From Aurelia coerulea (taxonomy: Eukaryota > Cnidaria > Scyphozoa > Semaeostomeae > Ulmaridae), in contig CM076958.1 of assembly GCA_039566865.1 (NCBI GenBank), positions 9,090,501 through 9,154,500 on the forward strand: a stretch of DNA of 64,000 nt, read 5' to 3'. The notes under the pieces are model-generated. The model was not told the DNA's origin and searched no databases. It worked only from the letters and a program-made list of their open reading frames with translations. Of the stretch, positions 14,946-45,933 are shown in pieces. The stretch's first letter is position 1; each line of letters starts with the position of its first letter. The translations under genes were made by a program, and so were the position numbers.

Positions 14946-17402
14946 ATGTCAGGTACTCCCTTAGACTCCTCCGCAGCTACCCCTCTTTCAGCTGACAATC
15001 ATGCTACTGATGCCAGATCTACATTAAAGTTGCTAAGAGTAAGAAACATTGGTAGGGTCATTATAGGATACCTAAATATCAATTCTGTTAGAAATAAATT
15101 TGATGCACTCAAAGAAATTGCTTCACAAAGTTTAGATGTATTGATGATTGCCGAAACAAAAATTGATGCTACTTTTCCAACGGGGCAATTTGCCATAGAT
15201 GGATTTGCAACTCCCTTTCGATTAGACAGAAATGCAAATGGTGGTGGCTTACTGGTCTATGTCCGAAGTGATATCCCTTCGCATCAATTAAAGTCTTTCA
15301 AATTTTCCGATGGTATCGAATGCATTAGTTTTGAAATAAATTTGAGGAAAAAGAAATGGGTACTTTTCAGTGTTTATCGACCACCAACCCAGTCTCAAGA
15401 TCATTTATTTGAAAACCTTGGTCGTGCGATCGACCACTACAGTGAAACTTATGAAAACTTTATGTTCATAGGAGATTTTAATATGACTGAAACTGAGGAA
15501 CAGCTCAAAAATTTCTTGGACCTTTATAGTCTTAAAAATCTTGTCAAGGAACCAACGTGCTATAAATCTCATACACCAAGATGTATAGATCTTGTACTGA
15601 CAAACCGAAACAGGAGCGTGCAACAAACTACCACAGTTGAAACTGATATATCAGATTTCCATAAAATGGTTGCTACTATCCTTAAAACTACTTTCCCCAA
15701 ACAAGGACCAACGGTAATCAACTATAGAAATTATAGAAAATATAATGAAATTGCTTTCAGGAATGATCTTCGAGAGGAATTAGGGAAAATAGAGCCATTG
15801 GACTTGAATTACAGTTCATTTGAAACTACTTTTGATAGAGTTTTAGATAAACATGCTCCTGTTAAGAAAAAATATGTCCGGGCAAATGATAAACCATTTA
15901 TGACTCGTGCTCTGCGTAAAGCGACCATGCTACGTTCTAGATTACGTAATAAATTCAACGAAGATCGAACTGCTGAAAATTGGAACAAATTTCGCAAGCA
16001 ACGAAACTCTTGTGTTAAGTTATTTCGGAAGGAAAAAAGAAATTATTACAATAACCTAGACATCTCACTTGTCACTGATAATAAGAAATTCTGGAAAACT
16101 GTGAAACCTTTTTTCTCGGACAAATCACAATCTAAGAATAAAATACTGTTGATTGAAGATGAAACCATTATTTCCAACGATGTTGAGGTAGCAGAAACTA
16201 TGAACGAATTTTTCGTCACTGTGACGGATTCCCTTGGCATAAATGAAAACTCTAATTACGAAAATGCAAGAGAAGGAATCACAGATCCTATTGATGAGGC
16301 CGTACATAAGTTTTCCAATCATCCTAGCATTCTGAAAATTAAAGGTCGCTTTCAAGATGCTGGTTCCTTTACTTTTCAGAAAGTTACCCCTGATACTGTT
16401 GACAAAGAGGTTAGGAATCTAAATCCTAAAAAAGCTACAACGCACAAAAATATTCCTCCTAAAATTCTTAAATCCAATTCTGATGTATGTGTAGAACCTC
16501 TGACGAAAATATTTAATGATTGCATAGAAAATTCGTCCTTTCCTGATGAACTAAAGTGTGCGGATGTCACATCTCTTCCCAAGAATGGACCAACCAACTC
16601 TAGGACCAACTTTAGGCCAATTAGCGTTCTACCTACGGTCTCAAAGATGTTTGAAAGAATAATGGATAAACAGATAGTTGCTTATATTACACCCTTTTTA
16701 TCATCACTTCTCTGTGGTTTTCGAAAAGGTTACAGTGCCCAGCATGCTCTCGTACGGCTCTTAGAAAAATTCAAAATTTGCCTTGATGAAGGTGGTAAAG
16801 CAGGGGCTGTATTGATGGATCTGTCCAAGGCATTTGATTGCATCAGACACGATCTTTTGATTGCAAAATTGCACGCCTGCGGTTTCTCTCGCAAAGCATT
16901 GGCACTAATTAATGATTACCTCACAAATAGACAACAAAGAGTCAAAGTAAATGGGTCATTTAGTTCTTGGAAAAGCGTCACGCGGTGTTCCTCAGGGGTC
17001 AGTCTTAGGGCCTCTGTTATTCAACATATACATTAATGATCTTCTACTCTTCATTCAAAACTCGGATATATGTAATTATGCAGATGATACTACAATCTAT
17101 GCCTGCGATAAGAACCTGGGCAATATAGCTCATAGGCTTGAAAATGGCTGTAGTGTAGCTTTAGAACGGTTTACCGACAACTTTATGAAATTAAATGCAG
17201 ATAAATGCCATCTTTTGGTTTTTGGGCAGAGGTGTGATGATCCTGTTACTGTTAGGATTGGAAATGCTGATGTTGTAAATAGCTCCGAAGAGAAGCTACT
17301 CGGAGTTCAAATTGATAGCAAACTTTCCTTCGGTAATCATGTTTCCAAATTGTGTCAAAAGGCTAGCAATAAACTTTATGCACTTGCTCGCATATCCCCT
17401 TT
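14946..17402 (+). pseudogene. LINE-A ORF2: endonuclease and reverse transcriptase, one frameshift
   Basis: The first 696 codons are open from ATG 14946. The order is AP-like endonuclease (GYLNINSVRNK near residue 41, AETK near 69, VYRPPTQS near 143, IGDFNMTE near 175, SDFHKMV near 236), a linker, then RT fingers and palm (FRPISVLPTVSKMFE, LMDLSKAFDCIRHD). A one-base deletion near 16980 shifts the frame. RT continues from there as GVPQGSVLGPLLFNIYINDL and YADDTTIYA until about 17402, where an opposite-strand LINE is inserted. The C-terminus resumes at 18625. Apart from the shift the catalytic residues are intact, so the copy is fairly young. Confidence 0.92.
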
Positions 17403-18622
17403 CATTTTATTTTTTTAATTTTCATTTTAAAATTGTTTACCCAGGGTACAAATTCAGTATAAATACTGTTTTACAATTGGCCCTGCAAAAAATTACTTAC
17501 AAAATTAAAGAATTATATACAACAAAATTTACAATAAAAAGAGCGGAATACGTCAAAATTAAAGATATATTAATTTACAGCGATACACCTCCATATATAA
17601 AAGGTTTATTTTTCATTGATTTTGGACTTGAAGGCATTGATTGAGGGAGCCATCTTTGTATCCAAATCAAGACTGTTCCAGAGACTGGCCCCACGATAAG
17701 CAAAGGATTTTTGGCCATTGCCAGTTCTCAACATGGGTATTGCAAGGTTTGTTTTAGAGTTTCTTAACTCTCTTGGATGTACCTCGGACGATCTCACGAA
17801 GAGATCGCTAAGATATTGAGGTGCAAGAGAGTTAAGAGATTTGTAAACCATAGAACCTGTTTCTTTATTTATCAGCTTTTGTACAGATGGCCAACCAAGT
17901 CTCTGGAGCAAAGGAGCTGCAGATGCATCGAAAGGGCTATTTGTTACTATTCTGGCTGCTTTATTCTGTAATTTTTGAAGCACGTCTAGCTTTGAAGCAC
18001 CACAAGAGCCCCAGACAGAACAACAGTAGCTGAAATGTGGCTCCGTGATGCTTCTATATAAATTTATCAAAGTGTCAGTTTGAACAAAATTTTTTGCATA
18101 CTTCAATAGGCCAATAGCTCTGGAGATCTTCTTTTGAACCGCGCTTATATGACTTTCCCAGGTAAGGCAATTATCAATCATGACCCCGAGGTATTTTGTT
18201 TCGTTTACCAGGTTGATTTCCTCGCCCCCTACTTTGAAAGAAGGAAGTGTGCTAAGATTGTTTTTTAGTTTTTTAATTTTTGGCTTTGAACCAATTATCA
18301 TAGCCTGGGTTTTAACAACATTAAGGGAAAGCTTATTGCCTTGTAGCCACCTTTCAATGTACGACAGCTCCTCGTTGATTACTAGGTCCAGTTCCTCGCT
18401 TTTATCAGAAGAATACGAAATTGCTGTGTCGTCGGCATACATGGTTGCCTTTGCTTTCTTTAGAGCAAATGGCAAGTCATTTATGTATAGTAGAAAAAGA
18501 AGAGGCCCTAGGCACGATCCCTGTGGCACTCCAATATCAATATTTTCAATGCTAGAAGTTGTGCCATTGACTCTGCAGTACTGCTTCCGATTATCAAGAT
18601 AAGAACTGAACCATTTGTGCGC
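17403..18622 (-). mobile_element. L2-like LINE-E fragment inserted into LINE-A
   Basis: The minus strand encodes RT and C-terminal region without a stop: CRVNGTTSSIENIDIGVPQG, LLFLLYINDLPF, YADDTAISY, LSLNVVKTQAMIIGS, then the C-terminal domain (EPHFSYCCSVWGS, KLQNKAARIVTNSPF, YRGASLWNSLDLDTK), ending near 17606. The 3' UTR runs to an A/T-rich tail at about 17403. The 5' end is truncated within the RT domain. It lies between LINE-A residues ARISPF and DQSKLRTLMR, so it inserted later. No clean TSD was found; a small target deletion is possible. Confidence 0.9.
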
Positions 18623-18624
18623 AA

Positions 18625-19373
18625 GTGGATCAGAGCAAACTAAGAACACTCATGAGGGCATTTATTACCAGTCAGTTTCAATACTGTCCTTTAATCTGGA
18701 TGTTTCACAGCAGGCAGCTCAGCCAAAAAATTAACAAAATACAGGAAAGGGCTCTGAGAATTACTTATAAGGATACTGAATCTACTTATAGTGAGCTATT
18801 AGAGAAGGACTGTGCCGTTACGATTCATGCAAAGAACTTGCAGTTACTTATGACTGAGATGTACAAAACAAAAAATAACCTGAGCCCTTCATTCATGCTC
18901 GAAATTTTCAGCGAAAATGAAAGTCATTACAATTTGCGTAACAATAACGAATTCTTCCAACCTAGGGTGAGATCTGTCAACAACGGAACAGAAAGCATCC
19001 GATTTAAAGGTCCACAGCTGTGGCAAACGTTACCACCAACTATACGAAATTCAGAATCTCTTTGTCAGTTTAAAACAAAAATAAAAAATTGGAACGGAGA
19101 AAATTGCCCATGTAAATTATGCCGCGTTTTTATTCCGAACTTGGGCTTTTTATGATGATAATATTTGAATATCTGCTTTTATACACTTTTATGCCTTTAT
19201 ACTGTATACTTTCGATGAATTGTAAATATTTTATCCCCTTTTTTCTGATGTAACATTTGTATTTTAAAATTTTAACTAACGTTGGAATTAATTAGCTGAC
19301 TACTTTTAGCTATATTTTTTATGTATCCAACGGTAAAGAAATTGATAATAATAATAATAATAATAATAATAAA
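18625..19373 (+). pseudogene. LINE-A C-terminus, 3' UTR and (AAT)n tail
   Basis: This continues LINE-A after the nested insertion. It encodes the post-RT region (LRTLMRAFITSQFQYCPLIW, KINKIQERALRITYKD, FKGPQLWQTLPPTIR) and the Cys-rich end CPCKLCRVFIPNLGFL, with stop at 19153. The 3' UTR contains AATTAGCTGACTACTTTTAGC and ends in an (ATA)n microsatellite at 19345-19372, the usual kind of 3' end for CR1/L2-type LINEs. The same C-terminal motif closes the copies at 43084 and 45066. Confidence 0.9.
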
Positions 19374-24303: not shown

Positions 24304-24463
24304 GTCAAAATTCTGAAGTCTCGATGTTACTTACTTACTGAGCCAGCTACGTACCTCAAAAAAGGCCATAAATCTATTTGAGCGTCAAAATTCTGAAGTC
24401 TCGATGTTACTTACTTACTGAGCCAGCTACGTACCTCAAAAAAGGCCATAAATCTATTTGAGC
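24304..24463 (+). repeat. Perfect 80-bp tandem duplication
   Basis: Two adjacent 80-base units (24304-24383 and 24384-24463), starting GTCAAAATTCTGAAGTC, with no difference between them. This is either a very recent duplication or an assembly artefact. Confidence 0.92.
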
Positions 24464-30456: not shown

Positions 30457-33400
30457 TATGACAAGGCAGATTTTGTAGCAATTAGGAAAAGTATTGTAAT
30501 GTTTCGCTGGCGCGAGTATCTTGAAAACTTGACATGCCCTAATGAACAGGTTAAATTACTTAATGAAGTCCTCTTGAACATTTATACTAATTTCATACCT
30601 AATGAGGTTAAGACGATTAGGCCCCGCCAAGCACCCTGGATAACACAGACTATTAAAAACTTTTTGAGGAAAAAGAATCATGCCTATAAAAATTTTGTGA
30701 GGAATGGTCGACCAGAAAACAAATTTGAAGGAATTCAAAGGATGGTAACTGAAGGTTCAAAATTGATAGAGGATGCAAAACGGAATTACTTTCTGAAGGC
30801 TGGGAACACTTTAGCCAATCCTGGGACTGCCAGAAAAACGTATTGGTCCTTAATTAACACCGTTCTGAACAAGGCCAAAATTCCTATAATACCGCCCCTC
30901 TTGGAGAATGAATTATTCATAACAGATTTCACTGAAAAGGCACAGTTATTCAATGAATATTATATACTTCAGTGTACTACAATTGATACAGGCAGTCAGA
31001 TCCCACAACATGTTCCAGTAACAACTACATTGATTGATGAATTTACCATTTCTGAAGAAAAGATACTAAATATAATCAGATCACTTAACATTAATAAAGC
31101 ATATGGCTGGGATGAAATATCTGTGAGGATGATAAAACTAAGTGACGCTGCATTGATTGTACCGTTGAAAATAATCGTTTCAAACTGCTTGAGGCATGGA
31201 TCTTTTCCCGAAATATGGAAACATGCAAATGTAGTGCCAGTTCATAAGAAAAATGAGAGAAGTCTCAAAGGGAATTATCGTCCAATTTCTCTCCTTCCAA
31301 TTTTTGGGAAAATTCTTGAAAAACTAGTATACGATTCATTATACACTCACCTTGTTTCCTGTGAGTTATTGAATCCAAATCAATCAGGTTTTCGTCCCTG
31401 TGATTCCACTATCAACCAATTAATCTCTATAACGCATAAAATTTTTAAGGCCTTCGATTGTAATCCCCCCCTCGATGTTCGCTCAGTTTATCTTGATCTT
31501 TCTAAGGCATTTGACAGGGTATGGCATGATGGTCTAATTTACAAACTTAAGCGGTGTGGTGTCTCAGGGCAACTTCTTTCCCTTGTGGAAAGCTTTCTGA
31601 AGAATCGGAAACAGCGAACTGTGCTGAATGGTCAGTGTTCTGGTTGGGGAGATATATCAGCTGGAGTGCCACAGGGTTCCATTTTAGGTCCCTTATTCTT
31701 CCTTGTTTACATAAATGATCTAACTGTAGACTTGAAATGTAATGTTAAGCTTTTTGCTGATGATACATCGCTTTTTACGATCGTGCAAGATCCAAATACA
31801 GCTGCCAGTGATATGAATCACGACTTGGAGTTGATAAAAAAGTGGGCTCATGACTGGAGGATGTCATTCAATCCTGATGCGCGAAAGCAAGCTGTTGAAG
31901 TAATATTTTCAAGGAAAAACAAGGCAGTTGATCATCCAGTAATCGTCTTTAATAACACACCTGTGAAGGTAGTAGATGAACATAAGCACCTGGGAATGTT
32001 CCTTGACTCAAAACTCTCATTCTCCACTCATATGCTTTAAACGTAAGATAGATAATCTAAGCTTTGCATGATAATCGTATAGTATTTTAGCTTTTCAATT
32101 TTTTACTTTGTCAACAGTTTCTTTAAACAGGACCCTTATTGATAGCAGTATTTTACTTGTACTGAAAAGGCGTATCCTGTATAAATATGTATTATTATTA
32201 TTATTATTATTTATTATTATCAAAGAAGTTATCTCTAAAACAAGGAAGGGCATTGGCATGCTGAAGTATCTCTCCAAATATCTGCCCAGGCATACCTTAA
32301 ACGAATTATACAAGCTGTATGTTCGACCACATTTAGATTATGGGGATGTCATTTACCACAGTCCTGCAAAAGTATGCGAATTTAGTCATAGCGTCATTTT
32401 GCCGAACCACATGGGAAAGTTAGAATCCGTTCAATATTCTGCTGCTCTAGCAGTATCCGGCGCATGGAGGGGGACATCACGAGAGAAGGTATTCGCTGAG
32501 CTTGGTTGGGAATCGCTAAGTCTACGAAGGTGGAGTAGACGACTTACTCTGTTTTACAAATTCATAAATAATCTGACTCCTGGGTATACTAAAGATCCAA
32601 TCCCACCACTTCGGCAGTCGCAATATTCTTTTCGCAACCAGGATGTGGTCGGACGAATAGTGACAAGGACAGAAAAATTTCAATCTAGTTTTTATCCAAA
32701 TTGCTTAACTGAATGGAACAATCTGGATCCCGAGATTAGACTTGCACCCTCAGTTGCTGTTTTTAAGAAAAAGCTACTCGCGATAATCCGCCCCAATGCA
32801 AAACCCGTTTTGGTACGACCCAATCGGCCTATCCCATCTTACTCAACTTAGGGTTGGTCTCAGTAAACTGAACTTGCATAAATTCCAACACAATTTCAGG
32901 GATACCTTAGATCCAATGTGCCCTTCGAATGATGGCATTGAGGATACTGAACACTTCTTGTTGCTCTGCCCCTCGTTTGATTTGCAACGAAGAGATCTTC
33001 TCGCTGGAGTTTCGGCAATATTACGACCATTCGGACATAACAACCTTTCAAATAAGGCCCTGACGCAATATTTACTGTATGGCAATAAAGACCTATCTAT
33101 TGATCTTAACAGAAAGATTCTCGAGTTGACCTTAGCTTTCATCCACAACACCGGTCGGTTTGATTGAGGTCATTTTAATCTTTGTTATACGCCAAGTAAC
33201 CATCAAGTCCCTTTACCTTTTTCTTTCGTCTTCTGTTTCTTCTTTCATTTAGAATAGTTACGTTGCATTATTTAATGGAAATGAACGATTGCGGAAAAGA
33301 CAGTGGTATAATATTCCAACAAAAACCCTGGCTTTCTGCATTTAATTCATCGATCAAATTGACATAATTCGGTAGGAAGCAGGGAAATTGTTCTGAAACT

Positions 33401-41187: not shown

Positions 41188-41311
41188 GGGTGACCTTAGA
41201 CTGATTACGATTGAGTCCCAGTAATCGCTACCACCCACCCACCCTACTCGCTCATAATGGGTGGGTGGTAGCGATTACTAGGATTCAATCGTAATCAGTC
41301 TAGGGTGACCT
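41188..41311. mobile_element. 106-bp palindromic foldback element with 9-bp TSD
   Basis: GGGTGACCT at 41188-41196 is repeated exactly at 41303-41311. Between them, TAGACTGATTACGATTGAGT and following bases to ACCACCCACCCA form an almost perfect 46-bp stem with the right half; the loop is about 15 bases. A 9-bp duplication fits Mutator-like or foldback elements. It lies about 350 bp upstream of the RhoGAP first exon. Confidence 0.88.
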
Positions 41312-41403: not shown

Positions 41404-41608
41404 TTGTACGATATAATAAAACTTTGCACTTATGCCCAGATAAAGTCGGTTTTTAAGTTCGAAACATACCTGGACACTATAAATGACTTCAAGAGAAGGC
41501 AATGCTTTTCAAAACTGAGAATGAGTGCACATAATCTCAAAATTGAAGCTGGAAGATTTGGAAAAAACGTGATACCTAGATGTGACAGGCACTGCAAGTA
41601 CTGTCTGT
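41404..41608 (+). pseudogene. LINE-D C-terminal fragment, part 1
   Basis: Encodes VFKFETYLDTINDFKRRQCF, SKLRMSAHNLKIEAGRFGKN and PRCDRHCKYCLS, matching the LINE-D copy at 24692-25340 line by line. It breaks off at 41608 where a foldback element begins and resumes at 44653. Confidence 0.85.
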
Positions 41609-42118
41609 CAATACACCTTTTCAAAATTCCTTTTCGTACACCTTTTCATACACCTTTTGGAAATTTTTGAAAATTTCCTCCTACGAAACTTTTGACCATG
41701 AATTTGGATTCGGCAGCCAAAGTTTAGTCTACATGCAAATTTCCATAATCCTACTGTTCGCGATTTTGATCTTATGACCAGGGACGCCGGAGCGATGGTA
41801 GGGCAAGGGGGGCGACTAGGAGGGTAAGGGCAATCGAGACCGAAGGCGAGGGAAGCGCGCCTAAAGATTGGGGGTCCGGGGGTACTCCCCCGGGAAAATT
41901 TTTGTGGCCACGCCCTTTAGATTGGCTTAAAATGCTATCAAAAACGTTTTAATGAACATTAATCATGTTCTTTCACGAAACTTTTCGGCAATTCCTCCAC
42001 ATGTCCTCATTCCGAATCGCATAAAATCGCATATTGCTTATTTTGAAGTTGCAATCGATAGTCACTTTTTCATTTTTTTCTTTTTTTCATTTTAAAATTA
42101 TTTATGCATGGTATAGCC

Positions 42119-43036
42119 AGCATAGGAATCATTCGTCGTACATAGCCGATTGCTCGTGGCCCATGGTCGAAACCGCCAAAGCCTCATTTTCACGGACCAA
42201 TCAGACGGCTAAAAAGCGAGGGAGACAAAAGAAACTCGTGAAGATTTTCCTAAATTTTACCTACCTTCATAAAACGCAACCAGGACAAAAAACTGCTTGA
42301 GATTTTCCGAATTTCTTTAAAGCAATCTACTCTTCAGATGTTTGGGAGTAAAAGTTTGGATGCCGGTTAAAATATCTCCAGGATTGATGGAGTTATGGCC
42401 ACAAACAAACCGACAAGGCACTGAACCTTGAACAATAGAGATTCTGGCCGGGAGAAATAGTAATAACAATGGTGATTGTTGTAAGAACGACCCGAAAACG
42501 CAACAATCTCTGTGTTTTCAATTGTTCTTGCTATTGTCTTTCGCTAAATGTTCTTTTATTGAAGATTCAATTCCCTACGGTTTCTATGTGAATTGAAAAA
42601 GTCTACAAAGGCTTGTTCGCGCATTTGCATGTGGCAATACTCTTGGGGAGTTTCTGGTACTACTTTTTACATTCATGGCAAAAGTTTGCTCGTTGCGAAA
42701 TAACTTGTAAAATTCAAAAGAGGATTTGTCAAGAGGCTTTATCACCTGACTTGAAGTGGCGTAAACAGGTCTCGACAAGCCTTCGCCGATTTTGTCTATT
42801 GGAGAGGCAATAACTCCGCCAATCCTGAAGATATTTTAACCGGCATCCAAACTTGCATCTGGAGAGTAGATTGCTTTAAAAAAAGCCCCTGATTGCGTTT
42901 TATGAAGGTAGGTAAAATTTAGGGTCACGGGTTTCTTTTGTCTCCTTCGCTTTTTAGCCGTCTGATTGGTCCGTGAAAATGATTTCGACCATGGGCCACG
43001 AGCAATCGGCTATGTACGACGAATGATTCCTATGCT
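42119..43036. mobile_element. Mutator-like long-TIR MITE with 9-bp TSD
   Basis: GGTATAGCC at 42110-42118 recurs exactly at 43037-43045. The element is 918 bp with TIRs of about 280 bp, starting AGCATAGGAATCATTCGTCG and including ATCGGCTATGTACGACG and TCTGATTGGTCCGTGAAAAT on the right side. Long TIRs plus a 9-bp TSD fit the Mutator (MULE) superfamily. The central 390 bp is non-coding. Confidence 0.9.
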
Positions 43037-43083
43037 GGTATAGCCCCGTCAGTCAGTATGACTGATTTTCAGGGGGCCGTGCC

Positions 43084-43573
43084 AAATAGTCTTAGAGAGG
43101 AATAAATCTGTGTCTCTTCATCAGAAGAATCTGCAGTTTTTGTTGGTTGAAATTTTTAAAACGAAGGCAAATCTAAATCCAAACTTCATGAAAGATATTT
43201 TTGTTGAAAAAACGGAAAACTATAATTTAAGAAGTGGGAGTACTCTCCAGTTACCAAAAGCCAGAACAACAACATACGGAATAGAATCTATATCGTTTCT
43301 AGGACAACGGCTTTGGCATGCATTGCCTGAAAGTTTAAAGCAATCTGAAAATCTAGCAATATTCAAAAAGAAAATAAGGAACTGGAAAATAGACTGTAAC
43401 TGTCGACTTTGTAAAATATATATTGCAGATTTGGGGTATTTATAGTTGATTTTCATAAATTTTGTATATATGGTATTATGTAAATAGGTAAATAGTTGGC
43501 TTTAATTAGCTGTAGTTAGCTACTTTTTCCTGCTGCCAACTGTAAATAAATCATTTATTATTATTATTATAAA
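43084..43573 (+). pseudogene. LINE-A C-terminal fragment
   Basis: Encodes VSLHQKNLQFLLVEIFKTKA, NYNLRSGSTLQLPKARTTTY, SFLGQRLWHALPESLKQS and the Cys-rich end CNCRLCKIYIADLGYL (stop 43443). The 3' UTR has TTTAATTAGCTGTAGTTAGC, TAAATAAATCATT and a (TTA)n tail. It is strongly 5'-truncated and inserted into the LINE-E 3' UTR. Confidence 0.9.
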
Positions 43574-44652
43574 AACTTTACAAATTAAAAAATCTACTAA
43601 AATTAATAACGGGAAAAGGAAACTAATTGCAACCATAAATAATTTATCTACAACTATTTACAATAAATTTACAACCGACCCTTTATCTTGTTCTTAAAAG
43701 AAGATAAAGAGGGAGCTTGCTTGGCCTCGCGGCTGAGATCATTCCAGATTTTTGCTCCACGAAATGCGAACGCTTTCTGTCCATTACTAGTTTTCATGAA
43801 TGGCACTAGCAAGTCAGTTTCGGCATTTCTAAGGTTGATAATATTGCGATAAGAATTTCTAACAAATAAATGCGAGAGATAATCAGGCGCGAGACTATTA
43901 ACAGATTTATATACAGTTGTTGCAGTCTCACTTCTGATCATATCCCTCACAGTTGGCCATTTTAACTCTGTAATCAAAGCTTCGGCAGGAGCATCGTAGC
44001 TGCTATTTGTAATAATTCTAGCGGCACGATTCTGCAATTTTTGAAGCTTAACCAGTCGGAACTCAGCACAGTTCCCCCACACAGAACGGCAGTACCGAAA
44101 ATGTGGCTCTGCAATACCTCTATATAATTTGCAAAGTACAGTTTTATAATTTGCAAAGTACAGTTTTATAATTTGCAAAGTGCAAAGTACAGTTTTCGTT
44201 ACTGGTGTGTTTCTGATAAAGGGAATGAAGCTATGGCGGCTTTTCCATCAAGTTTCAAAGTAAATTATTGTTTTTCATTGAAAGGGCACTTTTGCCCCCC
44301 TTGCCCCCGTTAGGAAAGGGCAGGAGGGGCACTTGACCCCCCGCGCCCTCCTCTCCGGCGTTCCTGCTTATGACGATAATAAGTTTGAAAATCTATAAGA
44401 GATTTGACCGTGAAAATTGCTCGGGGTGTAACTTTACACCCTCAGTCATTATTTACGGTCAAATCCCTTATAAATTTTCAACTTTACTATCGTCATAAAA
44501 TCGAAATTGTGAACACTGGAATTATGAAAATTAGCAACCAGACTAAAATTTAGGTGCTGAATCTAAATCTGATGTCAGAAATTTCATACGAAGCAATTTG
44601 GAGAAATTTATAAAATTTCCAAAATGAGGCCGCTTAGTTGAAAAGGTGTATT

Positions 44653-44825
44653 GGAATCAAGACTATTGGTCTGGTAATGAAGTTCATTTCTTCAGTTCAT
44701 AGTGTGCCCTTAGTTTCAAGATGAAAGAAGACTTCTTGAAACAAAGATAGTTGATTTGTACCCAAATGTATGTCAGCTAAATGTCAAGAACAAATTTATC
44801 TGGTTAATAAGTCAAGAGGATAAGT
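44653..44825 (+). pseudogene. LINE-D C-terminal fragment, part 2
   Basis: With frame breaks it encodes GNEVHF, then VDLYPNVCQLNVKNKFIWLI and SQEDK, matching the end of the other LINE-D copy (VYPNFTQISLWNKFIWLLSQ). It is the continuation of 41404-41608. From 44826, ACTAGACTTATGACATTTCG matches the TIR of the MITE at 59418-59969, so a partial copy of that family starts here. Confidence 0.75.
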
Positions 44826-44829
44826 ACTA

Positions 44830-45065
44830 GACTTATGACATTTCGTCCCTTGTTTCCCTGAGTTCTTTGACTTGCAGTTATCACTTGCTCATTTCCTTAC
44901 TTTTATAAAGTGTAGCCAGTATAAAGTGGTGTGGATCCATATTGACCAATCAAATTGCTAGGATTTAGTTTTCAACCAATAAGGAGGCGCTGTTTAGACT
45001 GTTGTTGTTGTTGTGTACAAAAACGGTTGATTCGGGAAAGAGAGCGAGACTGAACTTTATGACAG
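44830..45065. other. Spacer with a partial MITE end
   Basis: Apart from the MITE-like start at 44826 (CTTGTTTCCCTGAGTTCTTTG) I see only AT-rich sequence and a short GTT repeat at 45001. Confidence 0.5.
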
Positions 45066-45933
45066 AACTTTAAACCATAGAATAAATCATGTTCACGAAA
45101 GGGCACTGCGCATTGCGTACAAGGATCACGGAAGTTATTTTGGTTCTCTCCTGGAACAGAGCAATTCGGTGCCCATCCATGTAAGAAATTTACAGTTGCT
45201 TATGACGGAAATTTTTAAAACAAAGTCTGATCTAAATCCGCCTTTCATGAAGAATATTTTTATGGAAAGAGGTATTAGCTGCAACCTAAGGCATGGCAAT
45301 GACGCTCAAATTCCAATGGTGCGAACCACGTCCTTTGGAGTTGAGACCATAGCCTACCTTGGAAATAAACTTTGGCAGTTTTTACCGCACGAAATAAAAC
45401 GATCAAGCACCCTTCCTATTTTTAAAAAACGAATTAGATGTTGGAATGGAGAAAAATGCAACTGTAGGCTCTGCAAAACATACATTCCAAGAGTTGGGTT
45501 TCTAACATGATAAACATTTCATGGGCCTTCTCGTGAGGATGGGGGCGGTGCGCTGCTTGCCGTTGGGATGGGGGATGTGCTGTGCGGGATGTGAGGTCCC
45601 CTTCACGATGCAGGCACTGGGCTGCGGTTGAACTGGGGAATTGCTCCCTAGCGGCGACCGCAGCTTAGGATATGCGTGTGGGGGTTCCCTCGCGCGGTGT
45701 GTCCGCCGTCTCTCTGGGAGGTGGGCGTCACTCGATACCTCGTAGGGAAGGCATGCTTTTATCTTGTATATAATCCACTAAATGTTTTTATTGATTAGCT
45801 TTAGGAATTAATTTGAAAATTTTGTAAATTTTTGTAAAGTATAGGCCTAAATTAGCTGTAATTTAGCTATTCTTTATATTTTACTTAGCCTACTAATAAA
45901 CTATTGATGATGATGATGATTGATGATGATGAT

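Follow-up and report, generated by a model that had tools for sequence, protein, structure and literature searches.

Six transposable elements nested on five levels in a segment of the Aurelia coerulea genome, checked against uninterrupted relatives of each host

A nest of transposable elements in the window, the whole stretch of 64,000 nucleotides that was analysed (C16:9090501-9154500), is real, tidy and well supported, and its members belong to ordinary families. Six elements lie on five levels: a LINE (LINE-D) holds a foldback element, the foldback holds a hAT-type element, the hAT-type element holds a second LINE (LINE-E), and LINE-E holds both a Mutator-like MITE and a third LINE (LINE-A; Table 1). 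An uninterrupted form of every host is present elsewhere in the same genome, and most of the target duplications are in place. The whole arrangement is very probably the product of successive, ordinary transpositions in a eukaryote genome. The initial annotation had described a five-layer nest; the nesting and most of its breakpoints stand, whereas the count becomes six elements on five levels. It had also stated that the reading of each host resumes beyond its guest and had proposed a search for empty sites, and both points are borne out: uninterrupted relatives were found for LINE-D, the foldback, the hAT-type element and LINE-E, and they pass through every junction.

Table 1. Features of the nest, in positions of the window
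Feature	Positions	Strand	Basis or remark
LINE-D, left part, host of all others	41416..41612	+	39 best other places, 8 fetched
AT, foldback target duplication, left copy	41611..41612		LINE-D empty sites
Foldback, left part, near-palindromic ISL2EU-type MITE	41613..41778		tip rearranged
CTTATGAC, hAT duplication, left copy, also foldback sequence	41771..41778		
hAT-type non-autonomous element, left part, starts CAGGGACGCCGGAG	41779..42065		~462-bp family
LINE-E, part with the 3' tail; left MITE duplication GGTATAGCC at 42110-42118	42066..42118	-	
Mutator-like MITE, long terminal inverted repeats	42119..43036		19 genome copies
LINE-E, middle part, between guests, includes 43037-43045; ends AAA, maybe duplicated at 43571	43037..43086	-	
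LINE-A, 3' end of a young LINE, 5'-truncated; frame open as far as 43445	43090..43570	+	
LINE-E, coding 3' part; matches relatives to ~44145	43571..44192	-	
hAT-type element, right part, ends CTCCGGCGTTCCTG	44193..44366		fetched copies
CTTATGAC, hAT duplication, right copy	44367..44374		
Foldback, right part, ends TTGAAAAGGTGT	44375..44649		genome relatives
AT, foldback target duplication, right copy	44650..44651		LINE-D empty sites
LINE-D, right part	44652..44828	+	8/8 fetched relatives diverge at ~44828, other sequence beyond

The genome searched comprises 574,161,440 bases in 294 contigs. Queries were the whole nest (which gave the MITE copies), the foldback right arm, positions 43046-44366 (LINE-E), LINE-A, the hAT left end and the left part of LINE-D. 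The best 40 candidates of each search, the nest included, were scored, and copy numbers are therefore lower bounds; the copies that were fetched are the most similar relatives of each element, not a random sample. The region was also read directly, scanned for repeats and compared with the rest of the window. Pfam searches found no family in the LINE-A or LINE-E pieces of the nest, nor in the LINE-D copy of the window, and found RVT_1 in a LINE-E relative at 17606-18649; a protein search with the LINE-E relative gave 7471 hits.

LINE-D is visible from about 41416 to about 44828. Identity to its relatives is 76-98% among the best 39 other places and 95-98% in the eight relatives that were fetched. 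All eight pass from the left part straight into the sequence of 44652-44828 and thus represent LINE-D without the foldback; a further, less similar copy at 25250-24650 of the window (minus strand) is also uninterrupted at this site. The empty site reads TGTCAATTGG in all eight fetched relatives, and the nest reads TGTCAAT, foldback, ATTGG. As AT is present once in the LINE-D target and twice when the target is occupied, the foldback extends from 41613 to 44649 with AT on each side, which corrects the earlier bounds of 41609-44652. Two 5-bp insertions in the nest copy of LINE-D, within 44660-44700, are absent from all eight fetched relatives and could be footprints of excised elements. At the other end of the right part, 44826-44873 matches 59972-59925 on the opposite strand, and the sequence beyond LINE-D (44829-44873) may be the start of another element. 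Near the other LINE-D copy of the window, 24304-24463 consists of two exact 80-bp tandem copies.

The consensus of the foldback family is nearly palindromic and 421 bp long, not counting one base at each end, and the termini of the nest copy are ACACCTTTTC...GAAAAGGTGT. Neither of the two parts of this copy has a frame of at least 100 aa. At its left tip (41613-41660), the nest copy contains TACACCTTTTCA-like units about three times, a motif present once in 22 recognised copies; the right tip is normal. These 22 copies, in which both ends were recognised by pattern (the other seven of the 29 fetched were dropped), also provide the flank counts. AT flanks both ends in 19 of them, and A at position -3 and T at position +3 are each found in 14, which amounts to a preference rather than a rule, and CAATTG at the nest site conforms to it. 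For ISL2EU, a group within the PHIS superfamily, a published survey gives AT duplications within the target A|AT|T, with A preferred before and T after (PMC4482050). On the strength of this published target, the foldback is called ISL2EU-type, and it shares both the AT duplication and the preference for flanking A and T. It differs in being about 420 bp long and almost wholly palindromic, and it is placed in the group by its duplication and flanking bases.

A Tc1/mariner-type MITE with a TA duplication was favoured at first from the copy ends, most of which have TA next to CACC and GGTG; occupied sites taken alone suit TA and AT equally. The TA model, however, needs an extra TA, and the LINE-D empty sites are without it (CAATTG in all eight fetched). 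A second, unrelated empty site, at which foldback copy L043 is compared with one relative in the window (32122-32220), also favours AT, by the small margin of 134 for the AT model to 129 for the TA model. The Tc1/mariner assignment was discarded on these two sites and is very unlikely. An identical empty site would result if the element extended one base further on both sides and made no duplication; the AT duplication is preferred because AT is the published type. The two empty sites together argue for AT as the duplication of this palindromic MITE family.

The insertion of the hAT-type element into the foldback is marked by an exact duplication, CTTATGAC, on both sides of 41779-44366, just as initially annotated. 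When this stretch and one copy of CTTATGAC are deleted in silico, the foldback arms pair through the junction. In agreement, all 29 fetched foldback copies (best 39 others scored) align unbroken across the junction. Short terminal inverted repeats beginning with CAG are a mark of hAT elements, and the nest element has them (CAGGGACGCCGGAG / CTCCGGCGTTCCTG). Exact 8-bp duplications flank seven of the eight fetched family members (six by script, L086 by eye), the duplication of L089 being imperfect; five copies are 462 bp long and two are 461 bp (L086 fell outside the script measurement). With its 8-bp duplications and its ends, CAGGGACG...CGTTCCTG, the nest element resembles non-autonomous members of the hAT superfamily; its family length of about 462 bp leaves no room for a transposase.

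LINE-E, a putative L2-like LINE in the initial annotation, is contained in none of the eight fetched hAT copies (best 39 others scored). At the corresponding empty site, GTCAC is joined to TTTTCGTTAC, with GGCAC in L083 and GTCAT in L086 and L090 for the former, and TTTTCGATAC in L084 in place of the latter. These empty sites place LINE-E between 42065 and 44193 of the nest copy, a total span of about 42066-44192. TTTT is present at both ends and may represent a duplication or else belong to the LINE-E tail. At the 5' junction, 22-bp units recur about 2.7 times (44123-44188). To the right of the nest, a LINE piece at 45056-45487 is 97% identical to positions 992-1423 of L079, where it lies beside a LINE-E copy.

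Both guests of LINE-E have empty counterparts. All 29 fetched LINE-E relatives (best 39 others scored) align unbroken at the MITE and LINE-A sites, and a diverged relative in the window (17250-18300) is likewise uninterrupted at both. In a test with exact patterns, all 29 relatives had an empty MITE site and 26 had an empty LINE-A site; the other three, L057, L069 and L075, gave no match to the LINE-A empty-site pattern.

The Mutator-like MITE lies between two copies of GGTATAGCC, and its reported extent and duplication are upheld. With GG and CC at the MITE ends, the nest alone can be read as a duplication of 5, 7 or 9 bp. The 19 genome copies rule out the 5-bp and 7-bp readings: the duplication is 9 bp in 15 copies and 8 bp in two, and two have none. 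The exactness of the target duplication is qualified in one respect. The two nest copies are identical, but the TA within them is absent from all 29 LINE-E relatives, in which the target reads GGTAGCC (28/29) or GTTAGCC (1/29), so that a prior LINE-E variant with GGTATAGCC must be assumed. The family consensus is 977 bp long with arms of about 282 bp, of which 278/282 positions are paired. The nest copy is about 60 bp shorter, with losses of 24, 11, 10 and 6 bp in the right arm (42600-43036 region), smaller losses in the middle and none in the left arm. The 9-bp duplications and the long terminal inverted repeats, a feature not exclusive to the family, resemble those of Mutator-like elements; the nest copy has no frame of at least 100 aa, and its membership is a matter of structure.

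LINE-A had been annotated at 43084-43573 as a second insertion splitting LINE-E. The insertion is confirmed, but its start moves to about 43090, since near-identical copies match only from base 4 of the query; three unexplained bases, TAG, precede this start. Two LINE-A copies were fetched (best 39 others scored), and each differs from the nest copy at 1/483 sites. Both extend further upstream with sequence absent from the nest, and the idea of a fixed-length element, suggested by the common match from query base 4, was dropped for this reason. Comparison of the empty site GTGCCAAAAACTTTAC with the nest leaves a duplication of at most 3 bp, AAA, with TAG extra, and hence no clear target duplication for LINE-A.

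As insertions into successive hosts, the partial order is LINE-D, foldback, hAT-type element and LINE-E, followed by the MITE and LINE-A without mutual order. An ISL2EU-type palindromic MITE, the foldback, would have entered a LINE-D fragment, and the foldback would then have received, with an 8-bp duplication, a non-autonomous hAT element about 462 bp long. A 5'-truncated LINE-E would have followed on the minus strand of the hAT element, and the Mutator-like MITE, with its 9-bp duplication, and a 5'-truncated LINE-A would have entered LINE-E at two separate places. These insertions would have been carried out by enzymes of the named superfamilies, and at the present locus rather than within a loaded element that later moved here. 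The initial annotation took the nest to show the order of arrival directly. This is so for the order of insertion into each host, but not for the MITE relative to LINE-A, which lie side by side in LINE-E and are given no mutual order by nesting, nor for two boundaries at which the host presumably moves by cut and paste, those of the hAT element and the foldback. As such hosts may carry their inserts with them, nesting orders the events within a host and not arrival at the locus; across these two boundaries, the same order of arrival is likely.

The ages of the elements were approached through private substitutions, i.e., changes of the nest copy shared by no fetched, aligned relative. The counts are 6/321 for LINE-D (8 relatives; 41420-41611 and 44653-44826), 1/398 for the foldback (22 relatives; tip excluded), 10/460 or 2.2% for the hAT element (8 relatives), 3/634 for LINE-E (29 relatives) and 5/916 for the MITE (19 relatives); for LINE-A, the simple difference from its two relatives was used. 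The six rates differ (p 0.001). Those of the foldback, LINE-E, the MITE and LINE-A, about 0.4%, are statistically alike (p 0.75, with small expected counts). The hAT rate is higher than that of the foldback (p 0.013), LINE-E (p 0.020), the MITE (p 0.011) and LINE-A (p 0.005), uncorrected for multiple tests. The hAT element thus looks older than the foldback that contains it, although this comparison (Fisher test) sets 8 hAT relatives against 22 for the foldback, a disparity that biases the hAT count upwards. For the left 282 bases of the hAT element, the closest of the best 39 other copies is L083, at 98%. As the surrounding foldback looks young, the hAT changes are best placed before arrival, which would make the element an old copy that moved. 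LINE-E looks younger than the hAT element, as if it had joined late. The relative age scale for five families that had been proposed for the nest is therefore not retained: four of the six elements are statistically alike, and the hAT element appears older than its own host.

Divergence from the family consensus was rejected as a clock because 15 of the 20 MITE substitutions are common to copy L002, and 15 to L003, and because 10 of 12 foldback substitutions are common to L024. By this measure, the MITE (20/916) would score higher than LINE-E (8/634), the host into which it is inserted, but the difference is not significant (p 0.24).

The order of insertion could mislead if a loaded element had arrived, i.e., if the hAT element had entered the foldback already carrying LINE-E, with or without the MITE and LINE-A, or if a loaded foldback had entered LINE-D. 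The excess of private substitutions in the hAT element over both the foldback and LINE-E suggests that it probably existed elsewhere first, and a coral MITE family with TTAA ends, CMITE-IN, is reported to seem mobile as a unit with its insert (PMC2872659). The nest resembles CMITE-IN in having an element inside another; unlike the TTAA-ended coral unit, the composite shows no sign of movement. Loaded arrival is unlikely, given that the fetched hAT copies are all free of LINE-E, that LINE-E has fewer private substitutions than its host, and that none of the 79 matches listed for the 43046-44366 query, outside the nest, enters the hAT right end. Cut-and-paste transposition leaves no donor copy, and the absence of loaded hAT copies is accordingly no exclusion. 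In a specific form of this scenario, which is quite unlikely, an old hAT copy, about 462 bp long, acquired LINE-E, which may already have contained the MITE and LINE-A (about 2.1 kb in total), and the composite moved here by cut and paste. If this were true, the mobilised length would be several times that of the tiny non-autonomous carrier, and the order of nesting would mislead across cut-and-paste hosts.

An assembly or recombination artefact, in which separate repeats were collapsed or joined into a stack, might be suspected because every part of the nest is repetitive, with first-look candidates ranging from 60 (LINE-D) to 2649 (LINE-E query). This is extremely improbable: the hAT and MITE duplications are exact, at 8 and 9 bp, and AT is present at the foldback, as the families predict, and the foldback palindrome closes through the hAT element.

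Such nests are familiar, and using them for dating is not new. Relative dating from nested transposon clusters is established in the interruption matrix of TRANScendence (PMC5657132), and REANNOTATE is a further system (PMC2672092). Like the clusters treated there, the present nest has guests that split their hosts, an order given by nesting, and several families together; it is the same in kind, the difference being that a single locus is followed here at the level of bases rather than an entire genome. No description of this locus was found in the open-licence literature, among the titles and abstract openings of the matches listed. The nest offers a cleanly verified stack in which each level has its own empty-site control. 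The apparent age of the hAT element relative to its foldback, together with the higher, though not significantly higher, consensus divergence of the MITE than of its host, is a warning for dating based on nesting or on divergence. Just left of the nest, at 41189-41310, lies a separate hairpin with 53-bp arms that are 92% complementary.
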